From an uncultured Paraprevotella sp. (GTDB taxonomy: Bacteria > Bacteroidota > Bacteroidia > Bacteroidales > Bacteroidaceae): a stretch of 64,000 nucleotides of DNA. Shown in pieces: positions 6,424 to 49,424 of the stretch. The position numbers were made by a program, and so were the translations under genes. The stretch's first letter is position 1. Every line of letters begins with the position of its first letter. The stretch covers positions 1 through 64,000 of the forward strand of contig CAMWUI010000006.1 of NCBI GenBank assembly GCA_947177395.1, given 5' to 3'. The notes under the pieces are model-generated. The model saw only the letters and a list, made by a program, of their open reading frames with translations. It did not search any database and was not told the origin of the DNA.

Positions 6424-7587
6424 ATGAACGATAAGAATATGAAGGCGGTAGTAAACAGTATTTTATTATTGTTGTGTTTGCTGGCTGTGCCGGTTTGGGG
6501 CCAGCGTAAGGAGCGGAATATGAATGAAAAGTTGGATACACTTACTCCGGGACAGTGCTTCTCTTTTCATACAAACATGATTGACTGGTTGGCGGGTACG
6601 GCCAATGCGACGATAGAAGTGGATTTGGCGAGAGAACCGTATCATCGTTGGACGTTGCTCGGTAATTTGAAGTACAACTGGAATACCCATCATACCATTA
6701 ATCCCCGCAATATATATAATCTGTTTGAATTGTGTGTCGAGGGACGATATTATTGGCATACCCGTTCGGAAGGGTTCGTTTGGAAATCAGACCCGAATGC
6801 GTCTTCGATAAAGAATGCATTCCATCGCGCACGAACACGGGCGGCGGTGAAAAAGAACCCTCGGTCATACCGGGCTTATTATTTGGGATTGTACGGTGAA
6901 TACGACGATCATACCTTTTTGTGTGGAAACGGTATACAAGGTTTTGGTCTGGGAGTTGGTGTGGCCGGCGGTTTTACGCAGCCTCTGCATCAGTTGAGAC
7001 ACGGCTGTCTTGAATTGGAAGTCGGTGGTCGTGCCGGTTTTCGCTATACCCAATTCGAAAAAATTCATCATGAGTCGGTAGGGGACGCTTGGTTTACGTC
7101 TGATGGAGTGAAAAAGAAGTGCGCGGTTCCTTTCCCGGTGATACAGGATATTCATGTGTCTTTGGTTTACCGTCTGGTTTCGTCGAAGGATAAATATAAG
7201 TGGGACAGGAATCGTGCGGACCGTTGGGATCATGATTGGGCTGTGTCTATAAAAGAAAATGCAGAGCGGATTGATTCCCGGAATTTGTTAAGGGAAGAAA
7301 AAGATGCCCGCCGCAAAGCCGCGGCAGATTCCTTGAAGACGGTTAAGGAGGCAAAGGCTGTAGCCAAACAGATGAAGAAGGAGGCTAAACGCATGAGGAA
7401 AGACTCTATCGAAGCAGCGAAAGACTCTTTAAAGAAAATGAAGAATGCCGGATTGTCTATGGTGGAAATGCCCATAGATACGGTTGCGCACATAGAGGAA
7501 GTTCCGTTCCCGGATTCACAGGAGTTGCCGTTGCCAAAAGAAAATATGACGGCGATGGAGAATACTTCCGGACGGAGAGACTTCTGA
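6424..7587 (+). CDS. DUF3575-like outer-membrane protein, long form (operon A)
   Basis: Signal peptide; FHTNMIDWLAGTANATIEVDLAREPYHRWTLLGNLKYNW; paralogous to 13519..14973; Lys/Ala/Asp-Ser-rich C-terminal helix. Confidence 0.7.
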   Translation: MNDKNMKAVVNSILLLLCLLAVPVWGQRKERNMNEKLDTLTPGQCFSFHTNMIDWLAGTANATIEVDLAREPYHRWTLLGNLKYNWNTHHTINPRNIYNLFELCVEGRYYWHTRSEGFVWKSDPNASSIKNAFHRARTRAAVKKNPRSYRAYYLGLYGEYDDHTFLCGNGIQGFGLGVGVAGGFTQPLHQLRHGCLELEVGGRAGFRYTQFEKIHHESVGDAWFTSDGVKKKCAVPFPVIQDIHVSLVYRLVSSKDKYKWDRNRADRWDHDWAVSIKENAERIDSRNLLREEKDARRKAAADSLKTVKEAKAVAKQMKKEAKRMRKDSIEAAKDSLKKMKNAGLSMVEMPIDTVAHIEEVPFPDSQELPLPKENMTAMENTSGRRDF

Positions 7588-7721
7588 TTATTCCGGAAGA
7601 TGATAATGCATTGAACCAAAGTTTGTATAAGCAGGTGGATACCCTTTTCAAGCGGAGTGCGTTATGTTTAGTCTGCGGGTGTATTAAAAAAGAAAAGAAT
7701 AAGATAGATAAAGATTAATAA

Positions 7722-8267
7722 ATGAAACGTTCTTTATTTCTGGTAATAGCAATGTTGTGTCTTGGCACTACGGCCGTTCAGGCCCAGTTGCTGGCAGTGA
7801 AGACAGATGTTTTGATGGATGCATTGATGGTTCCCAACTTAAATGCTGAACTCGTGGTTGGCGAACGGAGCAGTATTAATGCTTCAGCGTTCTGTTCCAA
7901 AAAGATTTACAATAAAGACATAAGGATGGTCGGATTGATGCCGGAGTATCGTTTCTGGATGAGCGGACGTCCGATGTCGCGTGAATTTATAGGACTGGCG
8001 GTCATGGGTGTGAGGTACAATCTTACGTGGGATAAGAAAATATACAATGGCAATGCGATTGGTGCCGGTGTGACATTCGGTTATTCGTTCAATCTGTCCA
8101 GTCACTGGGATTTGGAATGCTACGGAAGTGTAGGAGCCGTGTATTACGATCAGAAGTATGATAGAGTGGATAACAAAGAAGAGAAACTGAGTAATAGGCA
8201 CAATTCCTATGGTTACTCTGTTATCCCGTTTAAGTTGGGTATTTCATTCTCATATATTATAAAATAA
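7722..8267 (+). CDS. DUF3575-like outer-membrane protein, short form (operon A)
   Basis: AVKTDVLMDALMVPNLNAELVVGERSSINAS; paralogous to 20171..20716. Confidence 0.75.
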   Translation: MKRSLFLVIAMLCLGTTAVQAQLLAVKTDVLMDALMVPNLNAELVVGERSSINASAFCSKKIYNKDIRMVGLMPEYRFWMSGRPMSREFIGLAVMGVRYNLTWDKKIYNGNAIGAGVTFGYSFNLSSHWDLECYGSVGAVYYDQKYDRVDNKEEKLSNRHNSYGYSVIPFKLGISFSYIIK

Positions 8268-8285
8268 GGTTAGGAGGAACGAGAT

Positions 8286-10571
8286 ATGATGAGAAAAAAG
8301 ATTGTTTGGCTGCTGTTGTTGCTGTTTGTCGGCATGGATGTCTGTCAGGGACAAATCTTTGGAAGTGCTGATAAAGTGGTTACGATAAAACTGCTTAATA
8401 AAGACGAAGGGAATACTCTTTTGCTGGAGCCTTTGAATGTATTCGTTTTTAATACTCCGAGCCAGGCGTACGAGGCTGCGCATTTATATGATAAGACGGG
8501 AGAAACTCCCCGTTTTGCAAAGAATCACGCCGTGTCTCAGGACGGTGTGTGTGCTTTGGCTGCTCCTTTGGACGGCGGTATCATGATAACAGGTCTGAGT
8601 ATGGAGAAAGCTTACTATGGACGTATTAACGGACAGATGGAGCTGACGGTCTCTTTGCCGGGCATGGGACGGACCCTTCGTCAGGTTGATGTAACGGCTA
8701 AGGCTAAATTGCGTCCTCGTCCGAAACCGGGAAAAAGATTCGGTAATAAATTAAAGTTTGAAAATGATTTTCAGATTTTACCTCAGTATGCAAAAGCAAA
8801 TGCCCGTTTGGTTTTGGTTCCCATCGTTGTGGAATGCCAGGAAGGAGATACTGTTGCAGTTCAACACCCGTGGGTAGTGGATGGTACTCTGTTTGAGATG
8901 ACCCAGAAACGTCGTATGGGATATGATGAAAGTCATGATCCTTTGATTGCCTATCGGGTGGATAAGAATATGGAGACAAGGCAGGGGATGTCTGTCCATA
9001 TAGAGGACTCTCTTACAAATCTGGTTGCAGGAAAAAGTTACCGATGCGACATCAAATATTGGTATGAGGATTATGGCAGGGTTTATTTCCGTGATTCTTT
9101 CAATTGCGTGCCTTGCGAATCGAGAAATCCTTTGCGCTTTCTGGAATATAAAGTAGATTCCAAGGAGATTAATCCGGAAGATTACCGGAAGTTACCACGA
9201 CCGGAACTCCATAGTCAGCCCGGTAGTTTGTCGTTGACGTTTGTAGTTGGTAAGGCTGTCTTGGATCCGGCTGATTCTACGAACTTCACCCAGTTGAATG
9301 ATCTGAAATCCGAATTGTCCGCGATTCTTAACAGCACGGACGGAACTGTTCAGCAGTTTGATATTCTCGGACAGTCTTCGCCGGACGGCCGTTATGCTGT
9401 CAATGAACGTCTGGGATACGACCGTATGATGTTTGCTTTTAATGAAATCGCATCCATTCCGGGCATGGATCGCCGGAACATGACGAAAGAAAGTCGTGTG
9501 GCGGATTGGGAACAGGTGGCTGATTCTTTGTTTGCCGATTCGCTTAAGGAATGTGCAGAGCAGGTGAGAGCTATTATCCGGAGTACTTCCAATAAGGATG
9601 CTCAGTTCCTGCGTATTGCCAAGCTGCCTTGTTACGAGAAGGAAATCAAGAAGATATTGCCTCGTCTCCGTACGGTATATTATCAATACCAGTATGAGAT
9701 CAACCGTGCCTTTTCTCCGATAGAAGTGTTGGAACGTTGGCAAACGGATAAAGATTTCCGTAGCGGAAAGAGAGAGTTTGCCTTGTATGAGTTCGGCTAT
9801 CTGTTCGATCAGGTAAAGGACCCGAAAGAGTTGGAGATATTGGCCCGCCGTGCATACCGGGTATCTAAGAATATGGGCAATCCGTGGCCTTTGGCTGCTT
9901 ATCATTTGGCACAGTGTTATCTCAAGCGCGATACTTGTGATACGACGTTGTTGTCCCCTTTTATTCGCTTTGACCGTATTCCTAATTTTAAGAGATATGG
10001 TGCGCAAAGGCCGGACGGGACAAGACCAGTGGAACAGATTATCAATGACGAAGCCATTGTTTCTACGCAGATAGTGATGATGGTGAAGATGGGTAATTTT
10101 GAAGAGGGATACGGCTTGACTGGATTGTTGCCCAAGACGGAAGAAAGCGAAAAGTTGCGTAAGTTCCTGGATTGTTTGAATGGCGGGTATGAAGACAGCG
10201 AACAAATCCGTAACTATGTAGCTTCCACATCTCCGATGAATTGTGCTGTCATTTATTCGGCAATGAATAACAGGATGTTCGACGAGATGGCGATGGAAGT
10301 TCTGGATGATACGATGTTATTTCCGAATCAGAATGACCCGAAGATACTTTATTTGAAAGCCATCGTGTCGGGACGCTCTCTGGACTTTGTGGATGAATAT
10401 GTTCTTAGCGAAGATAATACTTATCTTTTGGAATGTTGTAAGCAGGACGAGAAGTATTACAGGATGGCACGCAATGATGGCGATTTTACGGAGGACTATC
10501 GCAAGGCTTTTGAAAAGGTGTGGAAAATGTATAAAAACGGAGAACTTAATCTTAATGATATTAAGTTTTAA
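8286..10571 (+). CDS. OmpA-like / DUF3868-like fimbrial assembly protein (operon A)
   Basis: 761 aa, signal peptide, OmpA-like region LSLTFVVGKAVLDPADS...ILGQSSPDGRYAVNERLGYDR; paralogous to 20730..23009. Confidence 0.65.
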   Translation: MMRKKIVWLLLLLFVGMDVCQGQIFGSADKVVTIKLLNKDEGNTLLLEPLNVFVFNTPSQAYEAAHLYDKTGETPRFAKNHAVSQDGVCALAAPLDGGIMITGLSMEKAYYGRINGQMELTVSLPGMGRTLRQVDVTAKAKLRPRPKPGKRFGNKLKFENDFQILPQYAKANARLVLVPIVVECQEGDTVAVQHPWVVDGTLFEMTQKRRMGYDESHDPLIAYRVDKNMETRQGMSVHIEDSLTNLVAGKSYRCDIKYWYEDYGRVYFRDSFNCVPCESRNPLRFLEYKVDSKEINPEDYRKLPRPELHSQPGSLSLTFVVGKAVLDPADSTNFTQLNDLKSELSAILNSTDGTVQQFDILGQSSPDGRYAVNERLGYDRMMFAFNEIASIPGMDRRNMTKESRVADWEQVADSLFADSLKECAEQVRAIIRSTSNKDAQFLRIAKLPCYEKEIKKILPRLRTVYYQYQYEINRAFSPIEVLERWQTDKDFRSGKREFALYEFGYLFDQVKDPKELEILARRAYRVSKNMGNPWPLAAYHLAQCYLKRDTCDTTLLSPFIRFDRIPNFKRYGAQRPDGTRPVEQIINDEAIVSTQIVMMVKMGNFEEGYGLTGLLPKTEESEKLRKFLDCLNGGYEDSEQIRNYVASTSPMNCAVIYSAMNNRMFDEMAMEVLDDTMLFPNQNDPKILYLKAIVSGRSLDFVDEYVLSEDNTYLLECCKQDEKYYRMARNDGDFTEDYRKAFEKVWKMYKNGELNLNDIKF
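9339..10402 (+). repeat. 1064-bp segment identical to 21783..22846
   Basis: Constant offset 12444; compared by eye; first flanking mismatch at 10403 (T) vs 22847 (C); ORF-track ORFs in the segment are identical on both strands. Confidence 0.9.
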
Positions 10572-10587
10572 TAGGAGATAATAGAGG

Positions 10588-12582
10588 ATGGACGCGAAGA
10601 ATAGAATAGTTGTATATTGGGTTTTAGTCGGCATGTTGATGTTCATGCCTCAGAATGGTGTGGCGCGGCATTCATTGCATGTGGAACAAGACGATGTATT
10701 AGTATCCGGCGAGTCTTTGGAAGGTGAGGCATCGGTTCAGACTGTAAAATCTGATTCGGTCATATTTGCGGCGGATAATGTGGATATGAGAAATCCGGAG
10801 CAGTATATTCATCAGAGACGTTATCTTGAAAAAGGTTCGAAGTTCCGGAATTATTTCTATGAACATGTTTTTGTTGGTGCTAACATCGGTGCGTCTAAAA
10901 TTTATTCGTCTGGCGGACGGAGTCTGGAGCCCGGTATCCCTTTAACTCTGTTTATTGGTAATCAGTTCAATCGTTTGCATGGTCTCCGGTTGTCTGCCAC
11001 TTATCAGCGTTACAGTCTTTCAGGACGTAGTAATAAGTATATTAAGCAGGCGGGAATGGATTTGGACTATATGTTCAATCTCACTTCTTATCTGAATGGC
11101 TACAATCCCTCTCGGGTATTCAGTTTGTCCGGTACGTTAGGTGTCGGTGCCCTTTCTTCTCACCTGACAGAACAGGGGGGGGCTTGGGTTTATAAGGGAC
11201 AGGTCGGTTTGCATGCCGCGTTCCATGTAAGACGGGTTGCTGAGGTTTTTGTCGAGCCTTTCTTGGCTTTTGCAACCGATCAATTGGACCGTGCCGGAAA
11301 TCCTTCACATTATGATTTGCAGTACGGCGTAAAGGCTGGTGTGAGTGTACGTTTCGGACGGGAGAAAGAATATCTCAGACGTACGACATATAATGGAAAT
11401 CTTTTCTTTGAGGCAACGGAAGGCCTGATGTTCTACAACAGTGCCACATTGTCTGTGAAGGAGACGATGGGAACAAGTTGCGCCTTGTCTGTGGGAAAAT
11501 GGTTTGATCCTTTGTTAGGTGTGCGTATTACGGGGCACGCCTCCGATTATCTGTGGGAAAGTATGTCTGTTGCATCCAAACAGACGCGGCCGGCTTATGT
11601 GGCACATCGTCGGGCGGCATTGTTTGGGGGAAGGGCCGAAGTCTTGATTAATCCCATTCACTTTTCAAAGAGAGCCAGGGAGGTACATCGTCCGTTCGAT
11701 TTGAATATTGCGTTGGGTGGTGAAATGGGAAATGCGGTTAAATCTGTTTATGATGGTCGTACCGCAAAGAATTATTATGCGGGATTCACAGCAGCTTTGC
11801 AGGCTTTGTATAATATGAACACCAGTACTTCGCTTTTTGTAGAACCTCGTCTGTTGATGACCCAGACTTTTAGTAGCACGGAACTTGATCGTATCTTTGC
11901 GGTAAATGCTGGTGTACGTTTTATCCGTCCCACGAAAGAGGAGCGCAAGGTGCGTGGAAAGCATGAGTTCGAACCTGGTTGCTTTGCCAGTGCTCAACTT
12001 GGCGGTTTGAAACAGATGTTGAACATGAAGCGGATGGGGGATCGTCAGTTGAATTATTCCGGTGGTTTGGCTCTCGGTTACGAACCTTTTGCTTTCGGTG
12101 GAGTAAAACTTGGAGTAGAGTGTCTGGCACTGAATCGCGATGCCAATACACAATATGCATTGGAGGGTTCTAAAGATAAATACGACTTGCAATGGCATCA
12201 CACTTACGGACTGTTGAATACAAAGATGCAGTTGATGTTCAACTTGCTCAACATTTATCAGGGATATGATGCAGACCGTAAGTTGACGGTATATTTGAAC
12301 TTCGGACCGGCCTATTCTCTTTGTGTCGCTCAACGGAATAAATTGTATGGATCAGGATTGCCAAATGGTACGAGTCCTATTGTAAAGAACATAAAAGGCG
12401 ATGGAGCATGGGCACTTGACGGTAGCATAGCGTTGGACTATCGTTTGACATCCCGTTGGAGCCTGTATGTCGAGCCGGAATTGCAATATTATCTGAAAGA
12501 CAGCTTTATCGGTAAAAGTGAATTGCTGGATATGAAATCATTGTTAGTTAAATTCAATATCGGAACTTCATTCCGCTTTTGA
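10588..12582 (+). CDS. Outer-membrane beta-barrel protein, fimbrial operon A
   Basis: 664 aa, signal peptide, alternating aromatic C-terminal strands (LLVKFNIGTSFRF); paralogous to 23020..25056. Confidence 0.7.
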   Translation: MDAKNRIVVYWVLVGMLMFMPQNGVARHSLHVEQDDVLVSGESLEGEASVQTVKSDSVIFAADNVDMRNPEQYIHQRRYLEKGSKFRNYFYEHVFVGANIGASKIYSSGGRSLEPGIPLTLFIGNQFNRLHGLRLSATYQRYSLSGRSNKYIKQAGMDLDYMFNLTSYLNGYNPSRVFSLSGTLGVGALSSHLTEQGGAWVYKGQVGLHAAFHVRRVAEVFVEPFLAFATDQLDRAGNPSHYDLQYGVKAGVSVRFGREKEYLRRTTYNGNLFFEATEGLMFYNSATLSVKETMGTSCALSVGKWFDPLLGVRITGHASDYLWESMSVASKQTRPAYVAHRRAALFGGRAEVLINPIHFSKRAREVHRPFDLNIALGGEMGNAVKSVYDGRTAKNYYAGFTAALQALYNMNTSTSLFVEPRLLMTQTFSSTELDRIFAVNAGVRFIRPTKEERKVRGKHEFEPGCFASAQLGGLKQMLNMKRMGDRQLNYSGGLALGYEPFAFGGVKLGVECLALNRDANTQYALEGSKDKYDLQWHHTYGLLNTKMQLMFNLLNIYQGYDADRKLTVYLNFGPAYSLCVAQRNKLYGSGLPNGTSPIVKNIKGDGAWALDGSIALDYRLTSRWSLYVEPELQYYLKDSFIGKSELLDMKSLLVKFNIGTSFRF

Positions 12583-12637
12583 AATATGATGTATAAGGTT
12601 TAATGGAATTTGCATTGACATCCAAATAGACTTATGA

Positions 12638-12679
12638 GCCCCTGCTGTAATTGAGATTTACAGCAGGGGCTTTTATTTT
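12638..12679 (+). terminator. Strong Rho-independent terminator after operon A
   Basis: Perfect 13-bp stem GCCCCTGCTGTAA / TTACAGCAGGGGC followed by TTTTATTTT. Confidence 0.9.
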
Positions 12680-12829
12680 GTGGAATCTCCTCGGGATTCT
12701 ATATAATCCGGTATCTGAGGCGCAATATGATATCCGACTGAATCCGTGTGAGTACTCTTTCTTGTCTCGTATGGGGCATTTTCATCTTGTATTGGATGAG
12801 ACCCTGAAAAAAATAGTTTCAACTCTTCA

Positions 12830-12890
12830 ACACTTTTCGACATTCATCGACAGATATCATTGGACGAATGTTGTATCTTGAGATATGGAG
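12830..12890 (+). repeat. Copy 1 of a dispersed ~61-bp intergenic repeat (partner 28331..28391)
   Basis: About 45/61 identical without gaps, including CGACA-TCATCGACAG and GTTGTATCTTG cores. Confidence 0.65.
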
Positions 12891-13518
12891 TAATCTGTTC
12901 TTATTAACTACAGGTGAATCGTTATGAATCTATAATCGATATTTATAAAGATGTGTATATTTATATTATTCGAAGTCAAATTGGCAGAATGTATTTGATG
13001 CGAAAAAAGTCTTTCTTCTATTTTATTTCTGTTGGATTTTGAATCATAGTGTTTTCTGTTTTTATTTAAAATCCAATAAGGTATTAGAGGTGTAGGTTTT
13101 TCAAGTAAAATGATTTTTTGAAGGACCTTCTTGTTCGTGTGATTGCTTTGTTAGTTTATAGGTGTATTGTAATTATGTATTTTTATACCTTGTTATAAGG
13201 CACTGTATAATAATTTATTGTGATTTTATTATGAATTTTAGCAAATATTTTATTGGCTGTATTAAAGAAAAACTATATATTTACGCAGTGAAAAAATTAT
13301 TCCAATATTCGAATAAGAACTTTATTAGAGAGAAATGATGATAAAAAAGGTGGGGTAAGTATAAAAAGTTCCACGCGGATATTGGAGGACAAAGATAGAA
13401 TATATATATCGATACGGAAATGTTATCGGATTTAATCTCAGGTAAAAGGATATGTCAGACAACAGACAGGATGATGCTTATGGAAACTAAGTGAAAGTTC
13501 TTAGAGGTCTTGACGTAG

Positions 13519-14973
13519 TTGAATGATAAAAATATGAAGGCGATAATAAATAGTATCTTATTGTTGTTATGCTTGCTGGTAATTCCGGCTTCGGCTCAGC
13601 GAAGAGGAGGTAATTCCGGTACCAAGTTGGACACTCTTGCATTTGGTAAGCGTCTTTCTTTTCATTCGAATATGATCGACTGGCTGATGGGCACGCCTAA
13701 TGTTGCAGTGGAATTGGATTTGACGGGGGAACCTTATAACCGTCTGGCAGTGCTTGGCAATATTAAATATAATTGGAATCCGCATCATACTACAAATCCT
13801 CGTATTGTGTATAATGTATTCGAATTGTGCGTCGAAGGACGGTATTATTGGCATACTCGTTCGGACGGGAATGCGTGGCAGTCTGATACGACTGTGTTCT
13901 TTATGAAGAATGTATGGCATCGTTTTCGTACACGGGCTGCCGTGAAGAAAAAACCTCGTACATATCGGGCGTATTATGTGGGATTGTATGGCGAGTATGA
14001 CAAATATACTCTTTTGTTTGGCCATGGCGTACAGGGAAAAGGTGTGGGAGTGGGTGTGTCCGTCGGTTTTACACAGCCTTTGTATCAGATGAGGCACGGG
14101 AGCATAGAACTGGAAATCGGCGGTCGTGCCGGTCTCCGTTATACCCGTTTTGATAAATTCGGTTATGAGGAAGAGAGTGCTTGTTACGATTACAGAGGGA
14201 CGAAACGGAAACATTTAGTGCCGTTTCCCGTTGTGCAGGATATTCATGTATCTCTGGTTTATCGTCTGGTATCGTCGAAAAATAAATATAAATGGAACAA
14301 GGAACGTGCGTCCCAGTGGGATAATGATTGGGCCGAGTCCATAAAGGAACATTCGGATCGGGCAGATTCGTTGAAGCAGGTGAGGGAGGTAAGGAATGCT
14401 CGCAAGAAATTTGTGGCTGATTCCGTGGCTTCGGTGAAGCGTGAAAAACAGATGGCGGATTCTGTGCTGGATATTCGGAAGAAATTTGTGGCGGATTCAG
14501 CCAAGATGACCAAACGCATGAACGACTCCATTGCCCGGGAAGCAAAGATCGTGGCTAAACAAATGAAGAAACAGGCCGAACGGATGAGGAAAGATTCCAT
14601 TGCAACTGCAAAAGATTCTTTGGAAAGAATGAAAAACGTTGCGCCGTCAGTACCTGAAGTTCCGATAGATTCTGTTGCACAGATAAAAGAAACGCCATTA
14701 CCGGAGCCGATGGAGATTCCGTTACCGGAAGTAGACCCGGAGGAACCGGAAACACCTCCGTCGGAAGTTGACGGAGAGAACGAAGAAAAGCCAGTTCCGG
14801 ATGAGCCGTTGAAAGATGGAGAAGAGGAAAATCCCGTACCGGAGGAGGAACCGGCAGAGTCGGAAAACGAACAAAGTCAAGACGAAGATATACAAACTCT
14901 GAATATGCGATTGGACCGACATGGAATGCAGTATGAAATTTCCGAATGGGAGGAAGGAGGACAAAGGTCATGA
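13519..14973 (+). CDS. DUF3575-like outer-membrane protein, long form with acidic Pro/Glu tail (operon B)
   Basis: Paralogous to 6424..7587; repeated RKKFVADS segments and Pro/Glu-rich C-terminal extension. Confidence 0.7.
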   Translation: MNDKNMKAIINSILLLLCLLVIPASAQRRGGNSGTKLDTLAFGKRLSFHSNMIDWLMGTPNVAVELDLTGEPYNRLAVLGNIKYNWNPHHTTNPRIVYNVFELCVEGRYYWHTRSDGNAWQSDTTVFFMKNVWHRFRTRAAVKKKPRTYRAYYVGLYGEYDKYTLLFGHGVQGKGVGVGVSVGFTQPLYQMRHGSIELEIGGRAGLRYTRFDKFGYEEESACYDYRGTKRKHLVPFPVVQDIHVSLVYRLVSSKNKYKWNKERASQWDNDWAESIKEHSDRADSLKQVREVRNARKKFVADSVASVKREKQMADSVLDIRKKFVADSAKMTKRMNDSIAREAKIVAKQMKKQAERMRKDSIATAKDSLERMKNVAPSVPEVPIDSVAQIKETPLPEPMEIPLPEVDPEEPETPPSEVDGENEEKPVPDEPLKDGEEENPVPEEEPAESENEQSQDEDIQTLNMRLDRHGMQYEISEWEEGGQRS

Positions 14974-16322
14974 GACGATTATTGGAGACATGTTTCTTTG
15001 TACTCGTGTCGATAGTGCTTCTGCAATCTTGTAATACGGAAGTTGAACTCTGTTATTACAGCGAGCATCCCCATCGGGCGGCGTTGGACGTGCGTTACGA
15101 TTGGGGATCTTGGAAAGGGACTGGGCAACATCCGGAGCGTATGTATGTGCTGGCGCATCGTATTGTGAACACATATAAATATGTGTTTTCTACAGAGACT
15201 AAAACGTCCGGGAATCGTGCCACAATGTTGTTCCCTGTCGAAGAGCAGATACCGCTTTGTCCGTCACTAGAGGAAATCTCGAATGAAGGAGACACTCCGT
15301 CGGAGAGTAACGGGGAAGGGGACACTTCGGATGACGATGTATCTGCTGGCATGGAGGTGGTGCCAGATGATGAGGAAGAGGTTTCTGAAGAACCTGTTGA
15401 AGGAGATGTCCCTTTAGATAGTGATGAGGAGAACGAAACGGACGAAGAATTGCCTGAGGATCCCAAAGAGGTATGGCACAAAATGAGACTCAAAAACGGC
15501 AGATACCGTTTCCTGACGTTCAATTGCGACACAACGGCTTTTGGCATAAAAGGGTTGGAGGAATTTCAGAAAGATCCCTCATACAATATGGAGAATCTTT
15601 ACCTGAGATATAAAACCGTTTCTCAGGCAGAGAAAGAAGGTGCCCAGGCTTGGAAGGACTATAACCTCTATGCCGATTTTGTGGAAAGCGAAAACATGCC
15701 GATTTTTTATACGGTGCAGAATGGGGTAAATGTCAATCTGAATGAGCGGGTGGTAGTGAATTTTACTCCGCGACCGGTCACACAGAAGGTGACGGTGAAA
15801 TTTATAATAGACAAGGAAAAAGGAGTTAGGATAGACAGCCTTTTGGCTGATATGAGCGGTATTCCTTCCGGAATGCAGTTGGCTACGGGGTATCTAGAAA
15901 CGGATAGGACATATAAGATGCTTTTTAAACCGACATGTGGTAAAAACAATGAAAATGCTACGATTGTGAATTGTACGGGAGTGTTGAACGTTACGGGCAT
16001 TGTGCGTAGCCATGACGCATCATTGATTACAGGGCCGGGAATCATGCAGCTGGTGATATATACCTCTGCCACTGATCCGGATACGAAACTCCGGAAACGA
16101 AAGGTGATACAGTGTATCATTAATCTGCGTAATACGCTGACAAAAGCCAATCTAATACGTTGGGCTGCCGATGATGAGCATATCATACAAACGAAAAAAA
16201 CAGGCACGCTGGATATTCGCAGCATATTGAAGATAGAGAAAGGAATGGTGGTTGAGGACAGTGATAATGAAACCGGATTGGACCGATGGGGGCAAGGTGG
16301 TCAGATAGATATCGATGCGTAA
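14970..16322 (+). CDS. DUF5119-like lipoprotein (possible pilus anchor/assembly lipoprotein)
   Basis: Lipobox VLLQSC; CNTEVELCYYSEHPHRAALDVRYDW; ATGA overlap with the upstream ORF. Confidence 0.6.
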   Translation: MRRLLETCFFVLVSIVLLQSCNTEVELCYYSEHPHRAALDVRYDWGSWKGTGQHPERMYVLAHRIVNTYKYVFSTETKTSGNRATMLFPVEEQIPLCPSLEEISNEGDTPSESNGEGDTSDDDVSAGMEVVPDDEEEVSEEPVEGDVPLDSDEENETDEELPEDPKEVWHKMRLKNGRYRFLTFNCDTTAFGIKGLEEFQKDPSYNMENLYLRYKTVSQAEKEGAQAWKDYNLYADFVESENMPIFYTVQNGVNVNLNERVVVNFTPRPVTQKVTVKFIIDKEKGVRIDSLLADMSGIPSGMQLATGYLETDRTYKMLFKPTCGKNNENATIVNCTGVLNVTGIVRSHDASLITGPGIMQLVIYTSATDPDTKLRKRKVIQCIINLRNTLTKANLIRWAADDEHIIQTKKTGTLDIRSILKIEKGMVVEDSDNETGLDRWGQGGQIDIDA

Positions 16323-17761: not shown

Positions 17762-18943
17762 ATGAAAAAGAGTTATTTATTTGCTGCTCTTCTTGCGATG
17801 GGTGCATTGAGCAGTTGTTCTAATGGAACGGAGAATGTAGTTCCGGAGCAGTCTCAGAACGTTGAAGGTCGCCAGCCAATTCTTTTGGGCGTAGGCAATC
17901 CGAATCCTGTTGCCGTAACCCGTGGTACGGGTACCGTCGGTGACGTGGGAGAAGAACTTAGTGTATGGAATGGAGAGGAACTCTATATGCTGATGGTGAA
18001 GAAGACGGATACTTCGGATTTGGACTATGCAAAGGAAAGTGGGGAGTATATTTTTGGTAATGAGGCCATGAACGCACCAGTGGGCGTCAATGCCGGTTAT
18101 ATGACTTTGAAGCCTGGTGTGGTTACGAAGTACTATCCTATTTCCGGATTCTTTGATTTCTTCGCTTATCATGTAGATGACGCCAAAGCCGGTGAAATCG
18201 ATGAAACGGATACTCAGAAATGGATGCTTCCTTTCGTTATTGACGGTAGTCAGGATTTGATGGTCGGTAAGGCTGAGTTGACGGAGGAACAGAAAGAACT
18301 GATGGCTGCACATGGTTTGAGCGAAGAAGAGTCTTATGGTGCCAAGTCTGCCCGTCACGGTATTGTGCCCAGCATTACTTTCAAACATTTGCTAACCCGT
18401 CTGAATTTTACAGTAAAGGCTGGTGACCCTGAGGCAAGAGGCAACGGTGTTGCGGAGAATGCGGTACGCGTGGCAAGCATTGATATCGAATCTAAGACGA
18501 CTGGTAAGATGGTGGTTGCCTATAAAGGTACGGTGGCCGAAGAAAACCTGATTGAATGGGCAAACGAGGATAAATCCCGTTTGACTTTGAAATCACGTGT
18601 AGGTGCCACTTTGGCTGATTTGGTTGACATGGAGGAAGTAAACTTGTTCGATGCTACCGAAGAGGGAATCTCTGCCGGTGAGGCTCTGCTGGTGGCTCCG
18701 GAGGAGGAGTACATGATGAATGTAGTCCTGAAACAGATGGCTGTCGGAGCGGATACGGAAACCACATTGACTTTCAAGGTGCCCGTGAAGACAACTTCCG
18801 GTCGCGGGTTCCAAGCCGGTCACTCTTATAATGTAAGTGTTACTTTGTATGGCATGCGGCGTATCGACGTGCATGCAGTGTTGACAGCATGGGAGAAAGG
18901 CGAAGACATTTCTGTATTTCCGGAAGATGAAGGTGTAAACTAA
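17762..18943 (+). CDS. Fimbrillin family lipoprotein
   Basis: Lipobox ALSSC; VTRG; FKHLLTRLNFTVKAG; AGHSYNVSVTLYGMRRIDVHAVLTAWEKGED. Confidence 0.85.
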   Translation: MKKSYLFAALLAMGALSSCSNGTENVVPEQSQNVEGRQPILLGVGNPNPVAVTRGTGTVGDVGEELSVWNGEELYMLMVKKTDTSDLDYAKESGEYIFGNEAMNAPVGVNAGYMTLKPGVVTKYYPISGFFDFFAYHVDDAKAGEIDETDTQKWMLPFVIDGSQDLMVGKAELTEEQKELMAAHGLSEEESYGAKSARHGIVPSITFKHLLTRLNFTVKAGDPEARGNGVAENAVRVASIDIESKTTGKMVVAYKGTVAEENLIEWANEDKSRLTLKSRVGATLADLVDMEEVNLFDATEEGISAGEALLVAPEEEYMMNVVLKQMAVGADTETTLTFKVPVKTTSGRGFQAGHSYNVSVTLYGMRRIDVHAVLTAWEKGEDISVFPEDEGVN

Positions 18944-18958
18944 TTAACAACGGAAAGA

Positions 18959-20056
18959 ATGAATAAATATATGTATATGGCCTTGGCAGCATCGGTAACG
19001 ATGCTGTCGGCCTGCTCAAATGATGATGATCTGGCGGGTGGCTCAAACGGCGGCAATGTGGATATAGACAACACTCCCGTGGAAATCGTTTTGGGAGATG
19101 CCGGTCTGACTCGTGCAGCCATTCACGGTGACGGAAATCTGGAAAAGATGGGAATTTTCTGTCTGGCTAAGGTCAAACAGGAAATCAACAGCGGTGCCGC
19201 GGACATCAATTGGTTTGACGGTAATCCCACTCATTGGTCGGCTTGCATTATGAACAATGTTGCTGCCACGAAACAAGGTGGAAAGATTTCTTGGTTGGAA
19301 GCGGACAAGCATTATTTCTATCCCATTAGTCAGTTTTATAGCTATAATTTTTATGGGTATTATCCTTATGATGAACAGATTGATACAACGACTGTAAACC
19401 GTGCGGTGGTAAATTATACCATCGATGGTTCACAGGATATTATCTGGGGTAAGGCTACCAGCAGTGAACCGTATGCTTATAGTGCCAAGTATTTTCGTGA
19501 AAATGCCGGCGCGGCTAAGCCTAAGTTGAGTCTGGAGCATTTGTTGACGCGTCTTACCTTCACGATTCTGCCGGATGAGACTGGAGCGGACAATGGGGTG
19601 TCGGCAGCCGGTATGACGGTGCAGAAGGTTTATGTCAAGGATGTACCTGCCAATTTGGCTCTGATTGTTGCCAGTCGTGATGAAGAGGGTATCTTGTCGG
19701 CAGAGGAAGGCGTGTTGATTCCGTGTGAACTCAATCTGACAGATTTGTATCTGAAGGATGCAGACGGGACAGAACTGAATCCGGTTTCGTTGGTCGAAGG
19801 TGAAGCTGCTGTAGGCGAGAGCCTCTTGCTTTATCCGGCTGAAAAATATCTGTTGGCTGTAGACTTTACGCATGCGAATTTCCCTGGCGAGATTCTAAAG
19901 ACTGAGTGCTGGTTGGAACTGAAAGATGCAGCCGGTGCGTTTGAGAAGGGTAAGTCTTACAATGTGAAACTTACCGTTCATGGTCCTAAGGAAATCACGA
20001 TGGAAGCCGAATTGCAAGACTGGGTGGAAGGTGATGGCATAGACATCGAACTTTAA
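18959..20056 (+). CDS. Fimbrillin family lipoprotein
   Basis: Lipobox MLSAC; LTRA; LEHLLTRLTFTILPD; KGKSYNVKLTVHGPKEITMEAELQDW. Confidence 0.85.
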   Translation: MNKYMYMALAASVTMLSACSNDDDLAGGSNGGNVDIDNTPVEIVLGDAGLTRAAIHGDGNLEKMGIFCLAKVKQEINSGAADINWFDGNPTHWSACIMNNVAATKQGGKISWLEADKHYFYPISQFYSYNFYGYYPYDEQIDTTTVNRAVVNYTIDGSQDIIWGKATSSEPYAYSAKYFRENAGAAKPKLSLEHLLTRLTFTILPDETGADNGVSAAGMTVQKVYVKDVPANLALIVASRDEEGILSAEEGVLIPCELNLTDLYLKDADGTELNPVSLVEGEAAVGESLLLYPAEKYLLAVDFTHANFPGEILKTECWLELKDAAGAFEKGKSYNVKLTVHGPKEITMEAELQDWVEGDGIDIEL

Positions 20057-20170: not shown

Positions 20171-20716
20171 ATGAGACGTTCATTATTCCTGATGATAACG
20201 ATGTTGTGTCTTGGCAGTACGGCCGTTCGGGCCCAGTTGCTGGCTGTGAAGACAGATGCTTTGATGGATGTGTTGATGGTTCCCAACCTGAATGCCGAGC
20301 TGGTGGTTGGCGAACGGAGCAGTATCAATGCTTCTGTACTCTTTTCTCATAAAATCTATGGGAAGGACATGAAATTGATGGCGCTGATGCCGGAGTATCG
20401 TTTCTGGTTCAATGGGCGTCCGATGACGCGTGAATTTGTTGGATTGGCCGTAATTGGTGCGGAGTACGATCTGACGTGGGGCAAGGAGGTGTACAACGGT
20501 AATGCGTTGGGTGCCGGCCTGACGTTCGGTTATTCGTTCAACCTTTCTAACCGTTGGAATTTGGAATGTTATGGAAGTGTTGGAGCCATATATTACGACC
20601 AAAAGCATTATTATACGGGTGATCATGAAGAATATCTGGATAATAGAAATAATTCCCGCGGTTATGCAGTCATCCCGTTTAAGCTGGGTGTTTCATTCTC
20701 ATATATTATAAGGTAA
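20171..20716 (+). CDS. DUF3575-like outer-membrane protein, short form (operon B)
   Basis: Paralogous to 7722..8267; AVKTDALMDVLMVPNLNAELVVGERSSINAS. Confidence 0.75.
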   Translation: MRRSLFLMITMLCLGSTAVRAQLLAVKTDALMDVLMVPNLNAELVVGERSSINASVLFSHKIYGKDMKLMALMPEYRFWFNGRPMTREFVGLAVIGAEYDLTWGKEVYNGNALGAGLTFGYSFNLSNRWNLECYGSVGAIYYDQKHYYTGDHEEYLDNRNNSRGYAVIPFKLGVSFSYIIR

Positions 20717-20729
20717 GGAGGAACGTGGC

Positions 20730-23009
20730 ATGGTTGGGAAAAAGATTGTTTGGCTTCTATTGCTGCTGTTTGTTGGCAAGGACTTCTGCCAGGGGCAGAT
20801 TTTTGGAGGCAGTGATAAACTTATTACGGTAAAACTGCTTAATAAAGATGAGGGGAATACACCTTTGCTGGAATCTTTGAATGTATTCGTTTTTAATACC
20901 CCGAGCCAGGCGTATGAGGCTGCACAATTATATGATGAGACTAGTGAATGGCCTAAATCTGCAAAGAATTACGCCGTATCTCAGGATGGAGTGTGCTCTT
21001 TGACTGCGCCTTTGAAAGGTGGTATTATGATAGCGGGGCTGAGTATGGAAAAAGCCTACTATGGGCGTATTAACGGACAGATGGAGCTGGCGGTCTCTTT
21101 GTCTGGTATGGGGCGGACCGTTCGTCAGGTTGATATAACGGCTAAGGCGAAGTTGGGGCCTCGTCCGCAACCGGGAAAAAGATTCGGTAATAAATTAAAG
21201 TTTGAAAATGATTTTCCTGTTCTTCCCCAATATGCTCAAACAAATGCACGTGTCGTCTTGGCTCCTGTTGCACTTGATTGTCAGGAAGGAGACACTTTTT
21301 CTATTCCACATCCTTGGGTGATGGACGGTGGGCAATACAAGACTACTCAGAGGCGGCGTATGGGGTATGATGAAGAGAACGATTCCTTGATTGTTTATCG
21401 GGTGGACGAAACAATGGAAACGAGGCAAAGGGCGTCCATTCATGTTGCAGATTCGCTTGAAAAATTAGACATGGATAAGAGTTATAGATGTGATATAAAA
21501 TACTGGTATGAAGATTACAATATAGTATATTTCCAGGATTCTTTTAATTGCGTACCTTGTGAGGCAAGAATACCGTTACGTTTTTTGGAGTTTAAGGTAG
21601 ACTCCAAGGAAATTAATCCGGAAGATTACCGAAAGAATCCACAACCGGAGCGTCATAATCAGCCCGGCAGTTTGTCGTTGACGTTTGTTGTGGGTAAAGC
21701 AGAGTTGGATTCGAATGATTCCACGAACTTCATTCAGCTGGATAAACTGAAGTCGGAGTTGTCTTCGATTCTTAATAGTGAAGACGGAACTGTTCAGCAG
21801 TTTGATATTCTCGGACAGTCTTCGCCGGACGGCCGTTATGCTGTCAATGAACGTCTGGGATACGACCGTATGATGTTTGCTTTTAATGAAATCGCATCCA
21901 TTCCGGGCATGGATCGCCGGAACATGACGAAAGAAAGTCGTGTGGCGGATTGGGAACAGGTGGCTGATTCTTTGTTTGCCGATTCGCTTAAGGAATGTGC
22001 AGAGCAGGTGAGAGCTATTATCCGGAGTACTTCCAATAAGGATGCTCAGTTCCTGCGTATTGCCAAGCTGCCTTGTTACGAGAAGGAAATCAAGAAGATA
22101 TTGCCTCGTCTCCGTACGGTATATTATCAATACCAGTATGAGATCAACCGTGCCTTTTCTCCGATAGAAGTGTTGGAACGTTGGCAAACGGATAAAGATT
22201 TCCGTAGCGGAAAGAGAGAGTTTGCCTTGTATGAGTTCGGCTATCTGTTCGATCAGGTAAAGGACCCGAAAGAGTTGGAGATATTGGCCCGCCGTGCATA
22301 CCGGGTATCTAAGAATATGGGCAATCCGTGGCCTTTGGCTGCTTATCATTTGGCACAGTGTTATCTCAAGCGCGATACTTGTGATACGACGTTGTTGTCC
22401 CCTTTTATTCGCTTTGACCGTATTCCTAATTTTAAGAGATATGGTGCGCAAAGGCCGGACGGGACAAGACCAGTGGAACAGATTATCAATGACGAAGCCA
22501 TTGTTTCTACGCAGATAGTGATGATGGTGAAGATGGGTAATTTTGAAGAGGGATACGGCTTGACTGGATTGTTGCCCAAGACGGAAGAAAGCGAAAAGTT
22601 GCGTAAGTTCCTGGATTGTTTGAATGGCGGGTATGAAGACAGCGAACAAATCCGTAACTATGTAGCTTCCACATCTCCGATGAATTGTGCTGTCATTTAT
22701 TCGGCAATGAATAACAGGATGTTCGACGAGATGGCGATGGAAGTTCTGGATGATACGATGTTATTTCCGAATCAGAATGACCCGAAGATACTTTATTTGA
22801 AAGCCATCGTGTCGGGACGCTCTCTGGACTTTGTGGATGAATATGTCCTTAGCGAAGATAATACTTATCTTTTGGAATGTTGTAAGCAGGACGAGAGGTA
22901 TTACAGGATGGCACGCAATGATGGCGATTTTACGGAGGACTATCGCAAGGCCTTTGATAAAGTATGGGAAATGTATAAAAACGGAGAATTGGATGCCCCC
23001 GGGTTCTAA
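20730..23009 (+). CDS. OmpA-like / DUF3868-like fimbrial assembly protein (operon B)
   Basis: 759 aa; C-terminal half nearly identical to 8286..10571. Confidence 0.65.
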   Translation: MVGKKIVWLLLLLFVGKDFCQGQIFGGSDKLITVKLLNKDEGNTPLLESLNVFVFNTPSQAYEAAQLYDETSEWPKSAKNYAVSQDGVCSLTAPLKGGIMIAGLSMEKAYYGRINGQMELAVSLSGMGRTVRQVDITAKAKLGPRPQPGKRFGNKLKFENDFPVLPQYAQTNARVVLAPVALDCQEGDTFSIPHPWVMDGGQYKTTQRRRMGYDEENDSLIVYRVDETMETRQRASIHVADSLEKLDMDKSYRCDIKYWYEDYNIVYFQDSFNCVPCEARIPLRFLEFKVDSKEINPEDYRKNPQPERHNQPGSLSLTFVVGKAELDSNDSTNFIQLDKLKSELSSILNSEDGTVQQFDILGQSSPDGRYAVNERLGYDRMMFAFNEIASIPGMDRRNMTKESRVADWEQVADSLFADSLKECAEQVRAIIRSTSNKDAQFLRIAKLPCYEKEIKKILPRLRTVYYQYQYEINRAFSPIEVLERWQTDKDFRSGKREFALYEFGYLFDQVKDPKELEILARRAYRVSKNMGNPWPLAAYHLAQCYLKRDTCDTTLLSPFIRFDRIPNFKRYGAQRPDGTRPVEQIINDEAIVSTQIVMMVKMGNFEEGYGLTGLLPKTEESEKLRKFLDCLNGGYEDSEQIRNYVASTSPMNCAVIYSAMNNRMFDEMAMEVLDDTMLFPNQNDPKILYLKAIVSGRSLDFVDEYVLSEDNTYLLECCKQDERYYRMARNDGDFTEDYRKAFDKVWEMYKNGELDAPGF
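21783..22846 (+). repeat. 1064-bp segment identical to 9339..10402
   Basis: See partner; direct orientation, offset 12444. Confidence 0.9.
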
Positions 23010-23019
23010 TGAAATAAAA

Positions 23020-25056
23020 ATGGTAGTGAATTATAAGGCAATTATATATTGGGTTTTAGTCGGCATGCTGATGTTCATGCCTCAGAATAGCATGGCGTGG
23101 TATTTGCCATATGTGGAACAAGATTCAGTGTTGTCATCCAATGATTCATTGAAGAATGTTGAATCTATTGATGGTAAACCGGAAACAAATGTAACTACAG
23201 CGAAAGGCAATATGAGTATGATACGTCCGGAACGATATATTCTCCAACCCCGCCATCTTGAAAAAGGTTCGAAATTCCGGAACTATCTTTATGAGCATAT
23301 ATTTATGGGAGCTAATGTCGGTGTGTCTAAGGTCGACCCGCGCGGAGGGCGAAATCTGGCGCCAGGCATACCTTTAAGTCTGTTCGTAGGTAATTATTTC
23401 AATCGTTTGCACGGTGTCCGGCTCACTGCTACTTTTCAGCGTTATGGTGTGTCCGAAAATAGCCGGGACATCAAGCAGGCCGGGGCTGATCTGGATTATA
23501 TGTTCAACCTAACTTCCTACCTGGACGGATACAACCCCGCACGAGTGTTCAGTTTGTCCGGTACGATAGGTATCGGCGTCATATCCTCTCATTTGATGGG
23601 GTGGAAAGCCCCGGTATATAAAGGACAAGCCGGCGTGCACGCTGCCTTTCATATCAGGCGGACCGCGGAGATGTTTGTCGAACCTTTTTTTGCTTTTACC
23701 ACAGATCAGCTGGACCATTCCGGAGCAAGAGGAAATGCTGAAAACTACGATTTGCAGTATGGTGTGAAAGCGGGTTTGAGTGTGCGTTTCGGACAGGAGA
23801 AAGAATTCCTCAAAGGCACGACACACAACGGAAACCTGTTCTTTGAGGCTACGCAGGGATTGACGTTCTACAACAGCAATACACTGGCCGTGCGCAAGAC
23901 AACGGGAACAGGATATGCTTTGTCTGTAGGAAAGTGGTTCGATCCTTTGGTCGGTTTACGTATCACGGGGCATGCCTCCGACTATCTGTGGGGAAGTCTG
24001 TTTATTGCTCCCACGGAATCACGTCCTACTTACGAAGAACATCGTCGGGCGGCCTTGTTTGCCGGAAGGGGAGAGGTGCTGATAAATCCCATGCACTTTG
24101 CGAAGAGAGCCCGGGAAGTGCATCGTCCGTTCGATTTGAATATCGCTGTGGGAGGTGAAGTCGGACGTATCGTCAAATACATCAGTGGCTACGAACACGG
24201 AATGAAATGTAACTATGTGGGGTTCACTGCGGCTTTACAAGGTCTGTACAATCTGAATACCAACACCTCGCTGTTCATTGAGCCTCGTTTTCTGACAGCC
24301 CAATACGTGATACCTTATTCTAATATTCCGGCAGAGAAAGCATATAACGACCAGGTCTTTTTGTTGAATGCCGGTGTTCGTTTTATCCGTCCTACGAAAG
24401 AAGAACGCAAGATACGAGGGCTGCATGATTTTGAGCCCGGTTGTTTTGCCAATATTCAACTGGGAGGTTTGAAGCAAGTGATGAATGTGAAACGAATTGG
24501 GGAACGGAGCCTAAACTATTCCGGCAGTTTGCAGTTTGGTTACGAACCTTTCGCTTTTGGCGGTGTGAAAATCGGGGTGGAATATATGGCGCTCAACCGC
24601 CATGCCGATACGCAATATGAAGTGGATTGGGAAGGTTTCAAGCGTCAGTACGAGTCGCAATGGCATTACACCTACGGGTTGTTGAACACGAAAATGCAGC
24701 TGATGTTGAATCTGCTCAATATTTATCAGGGATATGATCCGGAACGTAAGCTGGCGGTTTACTTGAATTTTGGACCGGCGTATTCTCTCTGTCTCAATCA
24801 GCAAAACGAATTGTATGAAAGAGAATTGCAAGTGGGTACGAATCCTATTTCGTTTGCCAAGAACATAGAAGGTGACGGTGCGTGGGCGCTGAATGGCAGT
24901 ATGGTGGTGGATTATCGTCTGGCACCCCGTTGGAGTCTGTATGTCGAGCCTGAGATACAATACTTTTTGAAGGATAATTTTATTGGTCGTGGTGTATTTG
25001 CGGATATGAAATCATTGTTGGTCAAATTTAATATAGGAGCTTCGTTCCATTTTTAA
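23020..25056 (+). CDS. Outer-membrane beta-barrel protein, fimbrial operon B
   Basis: Paralogous to 10588..12582; start refined to MVVNYKAIIYWVLVGMLMFMPQN, after the stop of the upstream gene. Confidence 0.7.
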   Translation: MVVNYKAIIYWVLVGMLMFMPQNSMAWYLPYVEQDSVLSSNDSLKNVESIDGKPETNVTTAKGNMSMIRPERYILQPRHLEKGSKFRNYLYEHIFMGANVGVSKVDPRGGRNLAPGIPLSLFVGNYFNRLHGVRLTATFQRYGVSENSRDIKQAGADLDYMFNLTSYLDGYNPARVFSLSGTIGIGVISSHLMGWKAPVYKGQAGVHAAFHIRRTAEMFVEPFFAFTTDQLDHSGARGNAENYDLQYGVKAGLSVRFGQEKEFLKGTTHNGNLFFEATQGLTFYNSNTLAVRKTTGTGYALSVGKWFDPLVGLRITGHASDYLWGSLFIAPTESRPTYEEHRRAALFAGRGEVLINPMHFAKRAREVHRPFDLNIAVGGEVGRIVKYISGYEHGMKCNYVGFTAALQGLYNLNTNTSLFIEPRFLTAQYVIPYSNIPAEKAYNDQVFLLNAGVRFIRPTKEERKIRGLHDFEPGCFANIQLGGLKQVMNVKRIGERSLNYSGSLQFGYEPFAFGGVKIGVEYMALNRHADTQYEVDWEGFKRQYESQWHYTYGLLNTKMQLMLNLLNIYQGYDPERKLAVYLNFGPAYSLCLNQQNELYERELQVGTNPISFAKNIEGDGAWALNGSMVVDYRLAPRWSLYVEPEIQYFLKDNFIGRGVFADMKSLLVKFNIGASFHF

Positions 25057-25080
25057 AATATGAATACTGGATATAAAGAA

Positions 25081-26562
25081 ATGAAATACGTTTTTGGAAG
25101 TCTGTGCATATGGTTGGTCGGGAGCCTTCTGCTTGCATCGTGCAACGTGGGGGATATGACGGAGGATGACGAACGGACAGAGAATGTTGCTGGTCGGCAG
25201 GCCATCCGTTTTTCATATGTTACTCCGACGGTTACCCGAGGGGTGAGTTTGGACATACAAGGCTGTACATTGTCTGCTGGATTGGAGACTGGCATTTATG
25301 TTCGTGCGGAACAACTGGACGAATGTTTTCATAACGTAAGAGCCGAGGTGAATGGAACGGGGGGATTGCGTATGTTGACGACCGTATACTATCCGCAAAA
25401 GACGGATGAGCAGGTGAGAGCGTATGCCTATGCGCCTTATCAGAAAGCGTGGGGAACGTCGGACAAAGTTGCCGGTGACTGGAATATGAAAACATTTACA
25501 GTGCAGACGGACCAAAGTGTGGATGCGGCCGTGATTGCCAGTGATCTGTTATGGGCAGAGCCGGCGGGAGAAACGGTCAATCCATTCCGGACGGAACAAG
25601 TTGTTCAGTTCGCTTTCCGGCATTTGCTGACAAAGATTGTCGTGACACTGGATATAGAGAAAGAACTTATTACGCGTTTCGGTACCATAAAAGTGGAAAT
25701 GTTGGATGTAAACACTTCTTGTGTATTGGATCTGTTATCCGGAAATGTCGGAGAGGTTTCTTTGCCTCAGACGGTATTGATGGCTGAGCTGGATTTGTCT
25801 CCCTCCGACTTCTTGTCTACGGAAAGCAGAAAAATAACAAAGACCTGTTGCGCTATCGTAGTGCCCCAGTTAGTAACGCCTGGAACGGCTTTATTCCGGA
25901 TTACGTTGCCGGACGGGACTGTACGCATCGCTTATCAGCCGGAGGGACTCAAAACGGAATACGAGGGTGGTAAAACATTCAACTATGGTTTGTCTCTTTC
26001 GGACATGGTCATATTGGAGGATATCACAGGCGGTGAGGAAATTGACTTGGGACTGAGCGTAAACTGGGCAAGTCGCAATGTGGGAGCAGAAAATCCGGAA
26101 GATTACGGCGGACTATATGGTTGGGCCGATCCGACAGGAGTCCTGGTCTCGACGAACAACGACAGCTATCCCTCCGCCAATCCTCCGCTGGAAATAAGCG
26201 GAATGGATTATGACATAGCCCGTGCAAAATGGGGAGGATCATGGCGCATGCCTACTTTGGTGCATTTTGATGAATTGATAGCTCGTTGCATTTGGACGTG
26301 GGGAACCTATAAAGGAGTCTGGGGGTGTAAGATCACAGGACCTAATGGGAATAGTATATTTTTACCGGCAGGGGGACTTCGTCTTGGGTATGAAACCCAG
26401 TTGACCGGCGTGGGCGGTTGTTATTGGTCGAGTACGCTTGATACAAAAAGTTCTACGGGTATGAAAGCCGTCCGGATGGCTTTTACGAAAGGGGATCGAC
26501 TTGTATTTAGTTATGAACGGTATTATGGGCATTCAGTGCGTCCGGTGAAAGATAAAGAATAA
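25081..26562 (+). CDS. Fimbrillin-family lipoprotein with C-terminal FISUMP-like domain (candidate tip adhesin)
   Basis: Lipobox LLLASC; VTRG; FRHLLTKIVVTL; C-terminal DLGLSVNWASRNVGAENPEDYGGLYGWADPTG...CYWSSTLD...GHSVRPVKD. Confidence 0.75.
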   Translation: MKYVFGSLCIWLVGSLLLASCNVGDMTEDDERTENVAGRQAIRFSYVTPTVTRGVSLDIQGCTLSAGLETGIYVRAEQLDECFHNVRAEVNGTGGLRMLTTVYYPQKTDEQVRAYAYAPYQKAWGTSDKVAGDWNMKTFTVQTDQSVDAAVIASDLLWAEPAGETVNPFRTEQVVQFAFRHLLTKIVVTLDIEKELITRFGTIKVEMLDVNTSCVLDLLSGNVGEVSLPQTVLMAELDLSPSDFLSTESRKITKTCCAIVVPQLVTPGTALFRITLPDGTVRIAYQPEGLKTEYEGGKTFNYGLSLSDMVILEDITGGEEIDLGLSVNWASRNVGAENPEDYGGLYGWADPTGVLVSTNNDSYPSANPPLEISGMDYDIARAKWGGSWRMPTLVHFDELIARCIWTWGTYKGVWGCKITGPNGNSIFLPAGGLRLGYETQLTGVGGCYWSSTLDTKSSTGMKAVRMAFTKGDRLVFSYERYYGHSVRPVKDKE

Positions 26563-28457: not shown

Positions 28458-28462
28458 ATTTG

Positions 28463-28858
28463 TGGAGCTGGAGGGAATCGAACCCTCGTCCAAACAGGGA
28501 AATCATATGCTTTCTACACGCTTATCCCGGCCTTCGGTTTTCGAACGCAAACAAGACCCGGGCCACCCGTTTACGCCTTATCCTCTAAATTTTCACCGAT
28601 AGCGCGAGGCCGCTATCGGCTATCCCCGATTTGGCTGCACCACTGATCCGGAATGCTTCGGAGCAACAGCTTCCGAGTGATGTCTCGTTTCAGCACCTTG
28701 TGCCGAAATAAAGGTAATCTACTATACTTCGATTACGCAGCGAGAGCGTAGTTATTTTCGCCAGATAAATTTTTGGTAACTGAGATTCAAGAGGAAATCA
28801 CCGACCCTCTGCGTGCTTACATACCATTCCTTCCTGCTGTCAAATCCATGTCAACCCC
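28463..28858 (-). ncRNA. ssrA: Transfer-messenger RNA (tmRNA)
   Basis: Minus strand: 5' GGGGTTGACATGGATTTGACAG, tag reading frame GGC GAA AAT AAC TAC GCT CTC GCT GCG TAA (GENNYALAA*), 3' GTTTGGACGAGGGTTCGATTCCCTCCAGCTCCA; CCA not encoded. Confidence 0.95.
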
Positions 28859-41179: not shown

Positions 41180-41320
41180 TACCGTTTGTGGCCGGAACAG
41201 AAATAACAGCCGACTTCCGCCCTTTCCTGCTGACAGCTGGAAAGGGCGGAAGCTTTTTGGGGGAGGTTGCGGTCGCGTTCGGTCTTCCGTCCCGCAGGCT
41301 GTCCGCTTGCTGAGCCGTAC

Positions 41321-41450
41321 GCTGTTCACTATGGATAGTGGAGTGCTGTTCACTTAGGGTAGTGGAGCGCTGTTCACTTAGGGTAGTGGAGCGCTGTTCA
41401 CTTAGGATAGTGGAGTGCTGCTCACTAAGGGTAGTGAAGCACTGTCACTT
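41321..41450 (+). repeat. 24-bp tandem repeat array, ~5 units
   Basis: TAGTGGAG(T/C)GCTGTTCACTTAGGG repeated from 41336 with degenerate flanking units. Confidence 0.9.
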
Positions 41451-41484
41451 GCCAATCCGTAAGTTGTCGCGGCGGAACATGTTT

Positions 41485-41528
41485 CTTGCAATCTTGCATC
41501 TTGCACCGGCCCCTCACACCCACACACG
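41485..41528 (+). repeat. Left arm of 44-bp perfect inverted repeat
   Basis: CTTGCAATCTTGCATCTTGCACCGGCCCCTCACACCCACACACG; reverse complement at 41780..41823. Confidence 0.95.
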
Positions 41529-41779
41529 TGCGCGCGTATTATAATAGGTAAATTCTCCCTCTTCCTGCTCCTCGCATTCATGGAAAAGGCATGATTCCTC
41601 TCGTTTTCTCCGTCCGGTTCTGCTTGTTCAAACATGCCGGTTCCTGCCGATTGTTGTGCTTTTTTAGGGAATCATCGTCTGCGGTGTTTTTCGGGATGTG
41701 ACGGCGGGCTTCCGTGAAAAGCCTGAAACTTTCGTTTTCCAGCCCCCTCTTTTCTTTTGTCCTCTCGCGTACGCGTACG

Positions 41780-41823
41780 CGTGTGTGGGTGTGAGGGGCC
41801 GGTGCAAGATGCAAGATTGCAAG
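41780..41823 (-). repeat. Right arm of 44-bp perfect inverted repeat
   Basis: CGTGTGTGGGTGTGAGGGGCCGGTGCAAGATGCAAGATTGCAAG. Confidence 0.95.
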
Positions 41824-41958
41824 ATCCTTTTAAATCAGACCCCATAATTTGCAATGCTTTCGTGCCGCATTTGCAGGCGAAGCGGGGCCTCTCGCGGCTT
41901 TGCCGAAGAAGGGGAAAAATAATTGGCTGTGATTCATTGTGGTTTGCGGGAAAAATCG

Positions 41959-49383: not shown

Positions 49384-49424
49384 TTGCCTTTTCAGTTTAA
49401 ACAATAGAAAAACATAATAGGAAG

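Follow-up and report, generated by a model that had tools for sequence, protein, structure and literature searches.

The window analysed here, a 64,000-nucleotide stretch of the genome of an uncultured Paraprevotella sp., carries a gene cluster flanked by obg and a laccase-domain gene on one side and by a purH-like gene on the other (Table 1). Given that the neighbouring genes encode DUF3575, DUF5119 and Mfa-like fimbrillin proteins, the locus is a Bacteroidales fimbrial-type (Mfa-like/DUF3575) cluster. Within it, a module made up of a DUF3575 gene, a large OmpA-like gene and the gene that follows is found in two copies, here termed modules A and B, of which the large genes (genes A and B) are the subject of this work. 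In a sister species (G006), the same genes are present once, with their order kept and with the same obg and purH-like neighbours; relative to that species, the additional module spans approximately positions 6424–13518 of the window.

Table 1 Features of the fimbrial-type cluster (positions in the window)
Feature	Position	Strand	Remarks
DUF3575 gene	6424–7587	+	387 aa; paralogue of 13519–14973 (58% aa identity)
DUF3575 gene, module A	7722–8267	+	181 aa
Gene A	8286–10571	+	761 aa; signal peptide-like start, beta-rich N-terminal half, OmpA-like domain (~307–472), helical C-terminal region
Exact identical tract, copy A	9339–10402	+	Codons 352–706 of gene A
Near-identical tail of tract, copy A	10403–10507	+	2 mismatches in 105 bp
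Gene after gene A	10588–12582	+	664 aa; no Pfam family above cut-off
DUF3575 gene	13519–14973	+	484 aa
DUF5119 protein gene, fimbrial cluster	14946–16322	+	
Mfa-like fimbrillin gene	17762–18943	+	
Mfa-like fimbrillin gene	18959–20056	+	
DUF3575 gene, module B	20171–20716	+	181 aa; 73% aa identity with module A copy
Gene B	20730–23009	+	759 aa; paralogue of gene A (aa identity 88% overall, 76% before the tract)
Exact identical tract, copy B	21783–22846	+	
Near-identical tail of tract, copy B	22847–22951	+	
Gene after gene B	23020–25056	+	66% aa identity with 10588–12582; start inferred from sister-species alignment
Mfa-like fimbrillin gene	25060–26562	+	

Even obg and purH show about 50% third-codon-position identity between the two species. 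Outside the identical tract described below, the third positions of modules A and B (module genes and the 5′ part) are 52–65% identical and thus somewhat closer than the species pair, so the duplication, or earlier exchanges between the copies, might be younger than the split of the two species. The junction of the modules (12583–13518) is a stretch of about 0.94 kb without a listed open reading frame of at least 100 aa, and it holds a 14-bp hairpin (12637–12671), the only inverted repeat found in the intergenic stretches. Inversion between the two tracts is not expected, as they are direct repeats. No site-specific recombinase was detected in Pfam scans covering the cluster and selected further genes of the window.

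Several further features lie elsewhere in the window. A tmRNA gene with the tag peptide GENNYALAA occupies positions 28460–28858 on the minus strand, and a gene for a C25 peptidase (PorU-like) adjoins a PorV gene of the type IX secretion system at 45562–50618. A single intergenic region holds both a non-coding tandem array (41320–41450; 5.5 copies of a 24-bp unit), which lies between a gene ending at 41179 and the leader of the ribosomal protein L13 gene, and, upstream of the L13 gene, a 55-bp inverted repeat (41484–41538 and 41770–41824) whose arms are 94.5% identical and about 230 bp apart.

An AlphaFold model of the gene A protein, built from 20 relatives, had a mean pLDDT of 82, and from its order of strands and helices we assigned an OmpA-like alpha/beta domain to residues ~307–472. 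Among solved structures, Foldseek matched it best to OmpA C-terminal domains (E = 1e-4), with the TM-score by target reaching 0.74, and an OmpA-like fold is supported by this predicted structure. Sequence searches of Pfam, NCBIfam and the PDB found no family for the protein: in Pfam, gene A gave none at E values up to 10 and gene B gave one unrelated match (E = 0.2). The OmpA-like label used in a preliminary description of this DNA therefore holds for the fold but has no credible Pfam match behind it. In the motif N-x2-L-x3-R (N373, L376 and R380), the arginine is invariant. At the position that we take to be that of the aspartate in the diaminopimelate-binding Asp/Arg pair, the residue looks like a serine, as read from the sequence without structural superposition.

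Direct comparison of genes A and B showed that the exact tracts match over 1,064 bp with no mismatches, copy B lying 12,444 bp further along; the nearest mismatches on either side are at 9338 and 10403 (copy A coordinates). The endpoints given in the preliminary description are thus exact, as is its account of the right-hand side, where near-identity continues until divergence resumes at 10508. Over the whole near-identical stretch (9339–10507), 1,167 of 1,169 positions match. Both mismatches lie within the last 105 bp, an arrangement with a chance of about 0.8% if they were spread evenly. The difference at 10403 is synonymous (V) and A, B and the sister species all differ there, whereas that at 10453 exchanges K and R and B matches the sister species. 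This clustering suggests two nested events or patchy repair, not one clean tract, and the tail may be part of an older, longer exchange or a product of such repair.

On either side of the tract, identity between A and B returns to ~70–80%. The 5′ parts of the two genes, already described as diverged, are 77.6% identical (third positions 60.7%; dS ~1.0, NG86), and downstream, through the next gene, identity is ~56–82% per 100 bp. At that background, a 1,064-bp run would arise by chance with a probability of ~10^-117; counting only third positions gives ~10^-77. Outside the tract overall, identity is patchy (56–90% per 100 bp), as repeated exchange could produce, and the tract might on this basis be the last remnant of a recent module duplication, if diverged DNA had afterwards taken the place of everything else in one copy. 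However, such a history needs replacement of both sides across several genes, with all of the remaining sequence diverged, and we consider it very unlikely.

We propose instead that the tract arose by recent ectopic gene conversion of ~1.06–1.17 kb between paralogues A and B, a reading to which we assign a probability of about 85%. A-type sequence flanks copy A on both sides and B-type sequence flanks copy B on both sides; because both flanks are copy-specific, a non-reciprocal exchange is needed, as a single unequal crossover would alter one whole side. With the single orthologue of the sister species as third sequence and outgroup (record JAMPGY010000011.1, which is labelled Clostridium yet carries a Bacteroidales locus), each of the 239 informative tract sites grouped A with B, and none grouped B or A with the sister gene. 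Elsewhere in the module, the three site groupings occurred 624, 489 and 298 times. In a GENECONV-like permutation, the observed run of 239 polymorphic sites compares with a maximum of 21 in 10,000 permutations. Synonymous sites are saturated relative to the outgroup. The earlier suggestion of gene conversion is thus well supported by an internal identical tract, divergence on both of its sides and this saturation. No third or silent donor copy was found in the genome assembly. Among relatives, two other tandem pairs of the gene family (G106:C9 and G147:C45) showed no similar tract and are far more diverged. In the second of these relatives, an array of roughly 98-bp repeats (L051:7179–7913) lies immediately upstream of a gene A homologue.

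The sister species also bears on whether strong DNA-level or protein-level selection could have preserved the identity of the tract since the duplication. In favour of such selection, protein change between the species is somewhat slower in the tract region (dN 0.09) than in the 5′ part (0.16–0.19). However, third-position identity to the sister orthologue is 0.50 in the tract and 0.46–0.51 in the 5′ part, and 14% of amino acids in the tract differ. Synonymous sites there are therefore not constrained and constraint does not explain the identity, in agreement with the earlier argument that identical synonymous sites speak against protein-level selection alone. The antisense open reading frames had been noted to match exactly between the copies. 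They do, because the DNA is identical, but this is no evidence for a gene: in the sister species the frame is interrupted, its longest open stretch being 147 codons compared with 374 and 394 here, which also speaks against selection on the tract. Preservation by selection is accordingly scarcely credible. As for its position in the protein, the tract, with its tail reaching to codon ~740 of 761, begins at residue 352, within the OmpA-like domain, as had been described, and runs on through the helical C-terminal region. It does not, as had also been stated, cover the remaining C terminus, as the last ~20 residues of A and B are diverged; nor is it supported that homogenization is bounded by, or for functional reasons confined to, a periplasmic half, given that the tract starts mid-domain and stops short of the C terminus. 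The endpoints of one event carry no information on selection.

Ectopic conversion within this genome was also weighed against two other sources of the identity. One and the same stretch of DNA, acquired from another strain, could have overwritten both copies, by allelic replacement at one and ectopic replacement at the other; the same pattern would be expected, and the GC content of the tract (0.457), near that of its flanks, is compatible with a close relative as donor. This scenario requires two replacements with identical endpoints rather than one and, being less parsimonious, seems highly improbable. Alternatively, the identity could be partly or wholly artificial, if a short-read assembler collapsed the copies or joined two co-occurring strains. 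The species is represented by one genome, a draft assembly that is 87.7% complete and fragmented into 72 contigs; a two-copy direct repeat could thread one collapsed graph segment, with both copies printed from one consensus, and a collapsed repeat could mask a few scattered differences. By contrast, the window contains no N, the isolated differences at 10403 and 10453 were retained, indicating that some paralogue variants survived assembly, and divergence of ~22% should leave no long shared words for collapse. We regard an artefact as unlikely; in our judgement, the copies would be far more alike in the tract than in the flanks even under collapse, and it is the perfect identity that is less secure.

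In the gene conversion model, duplication of the module would have given two nearby copies, which then diverged to ~70–80% identity. Later homologous recombination between them, probably RecA-dependent, would have replaced ~1.06–1.17 kb of one OmpA-like gene with the corresponding sequence of the other and left the flanks unexchanged, as in ectopic gene conversion. The exchange appears to have taken place inside this genome, and recently.

Comparable patterns are known from other surface genes. In the Helicobacter pylori paralogues homA and homB, a divergent 5′ segment is joined to a 3′ segment homogenized within the strain by gene conversion (PMC2795765), and babA and babB likewise show partial conversion (as cited in PMC2795765). 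Genes A and B resemble both pairs in being surface-gene paralogues with divergent 5′ and homogenized 3′ parts. However, the homA/homB process is recurrent and seen in many strains, whereas here there is one event in one genome, between neighbouring modules of a Bacteroidales fimbrial cluster. Similarly, in a genome-wide analysis of concerted evolution of prokaryotic paralogues (26 genes; PMC6053082), as in the tract, paralogues are closer to each other within a genome than to the sister-species orthologue, but those cases are recurrent and long-lasting, and ours is a partial, single tract. In Porphyromonas gingivalis, which belongs to the same order as this bacterium, recombination and gene conversion have been proposed to diversify surface proteins (PMC5266723); there it is mostly allelic exchange between strains, unlike the homogenization of paralogues within one genome seen here. 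The event is thus a good illustration, though an ordinary one, of a well-known process, with nothing new in kind. By analogy with homA/homB, OmpA-like paralogues of Bacteroidales fimbrial clusters might undergo recurrent partial conversion, so that their C-terminal halves stay uniform as their N-terminal halves diversify, a generalization that we hold to be unlikely.

Genes A and B provide a clean case of partial homogenization between neighbouring surface-gene paralogues in the Bacteroidales, and they caution that trees of this family can combine different histories inside one gene. Should the process turn out to recur across strains, it would show that concerted evolution maintains the invariant half of a fimbrial-cluster protein and that the other half meanwhile diversifies.
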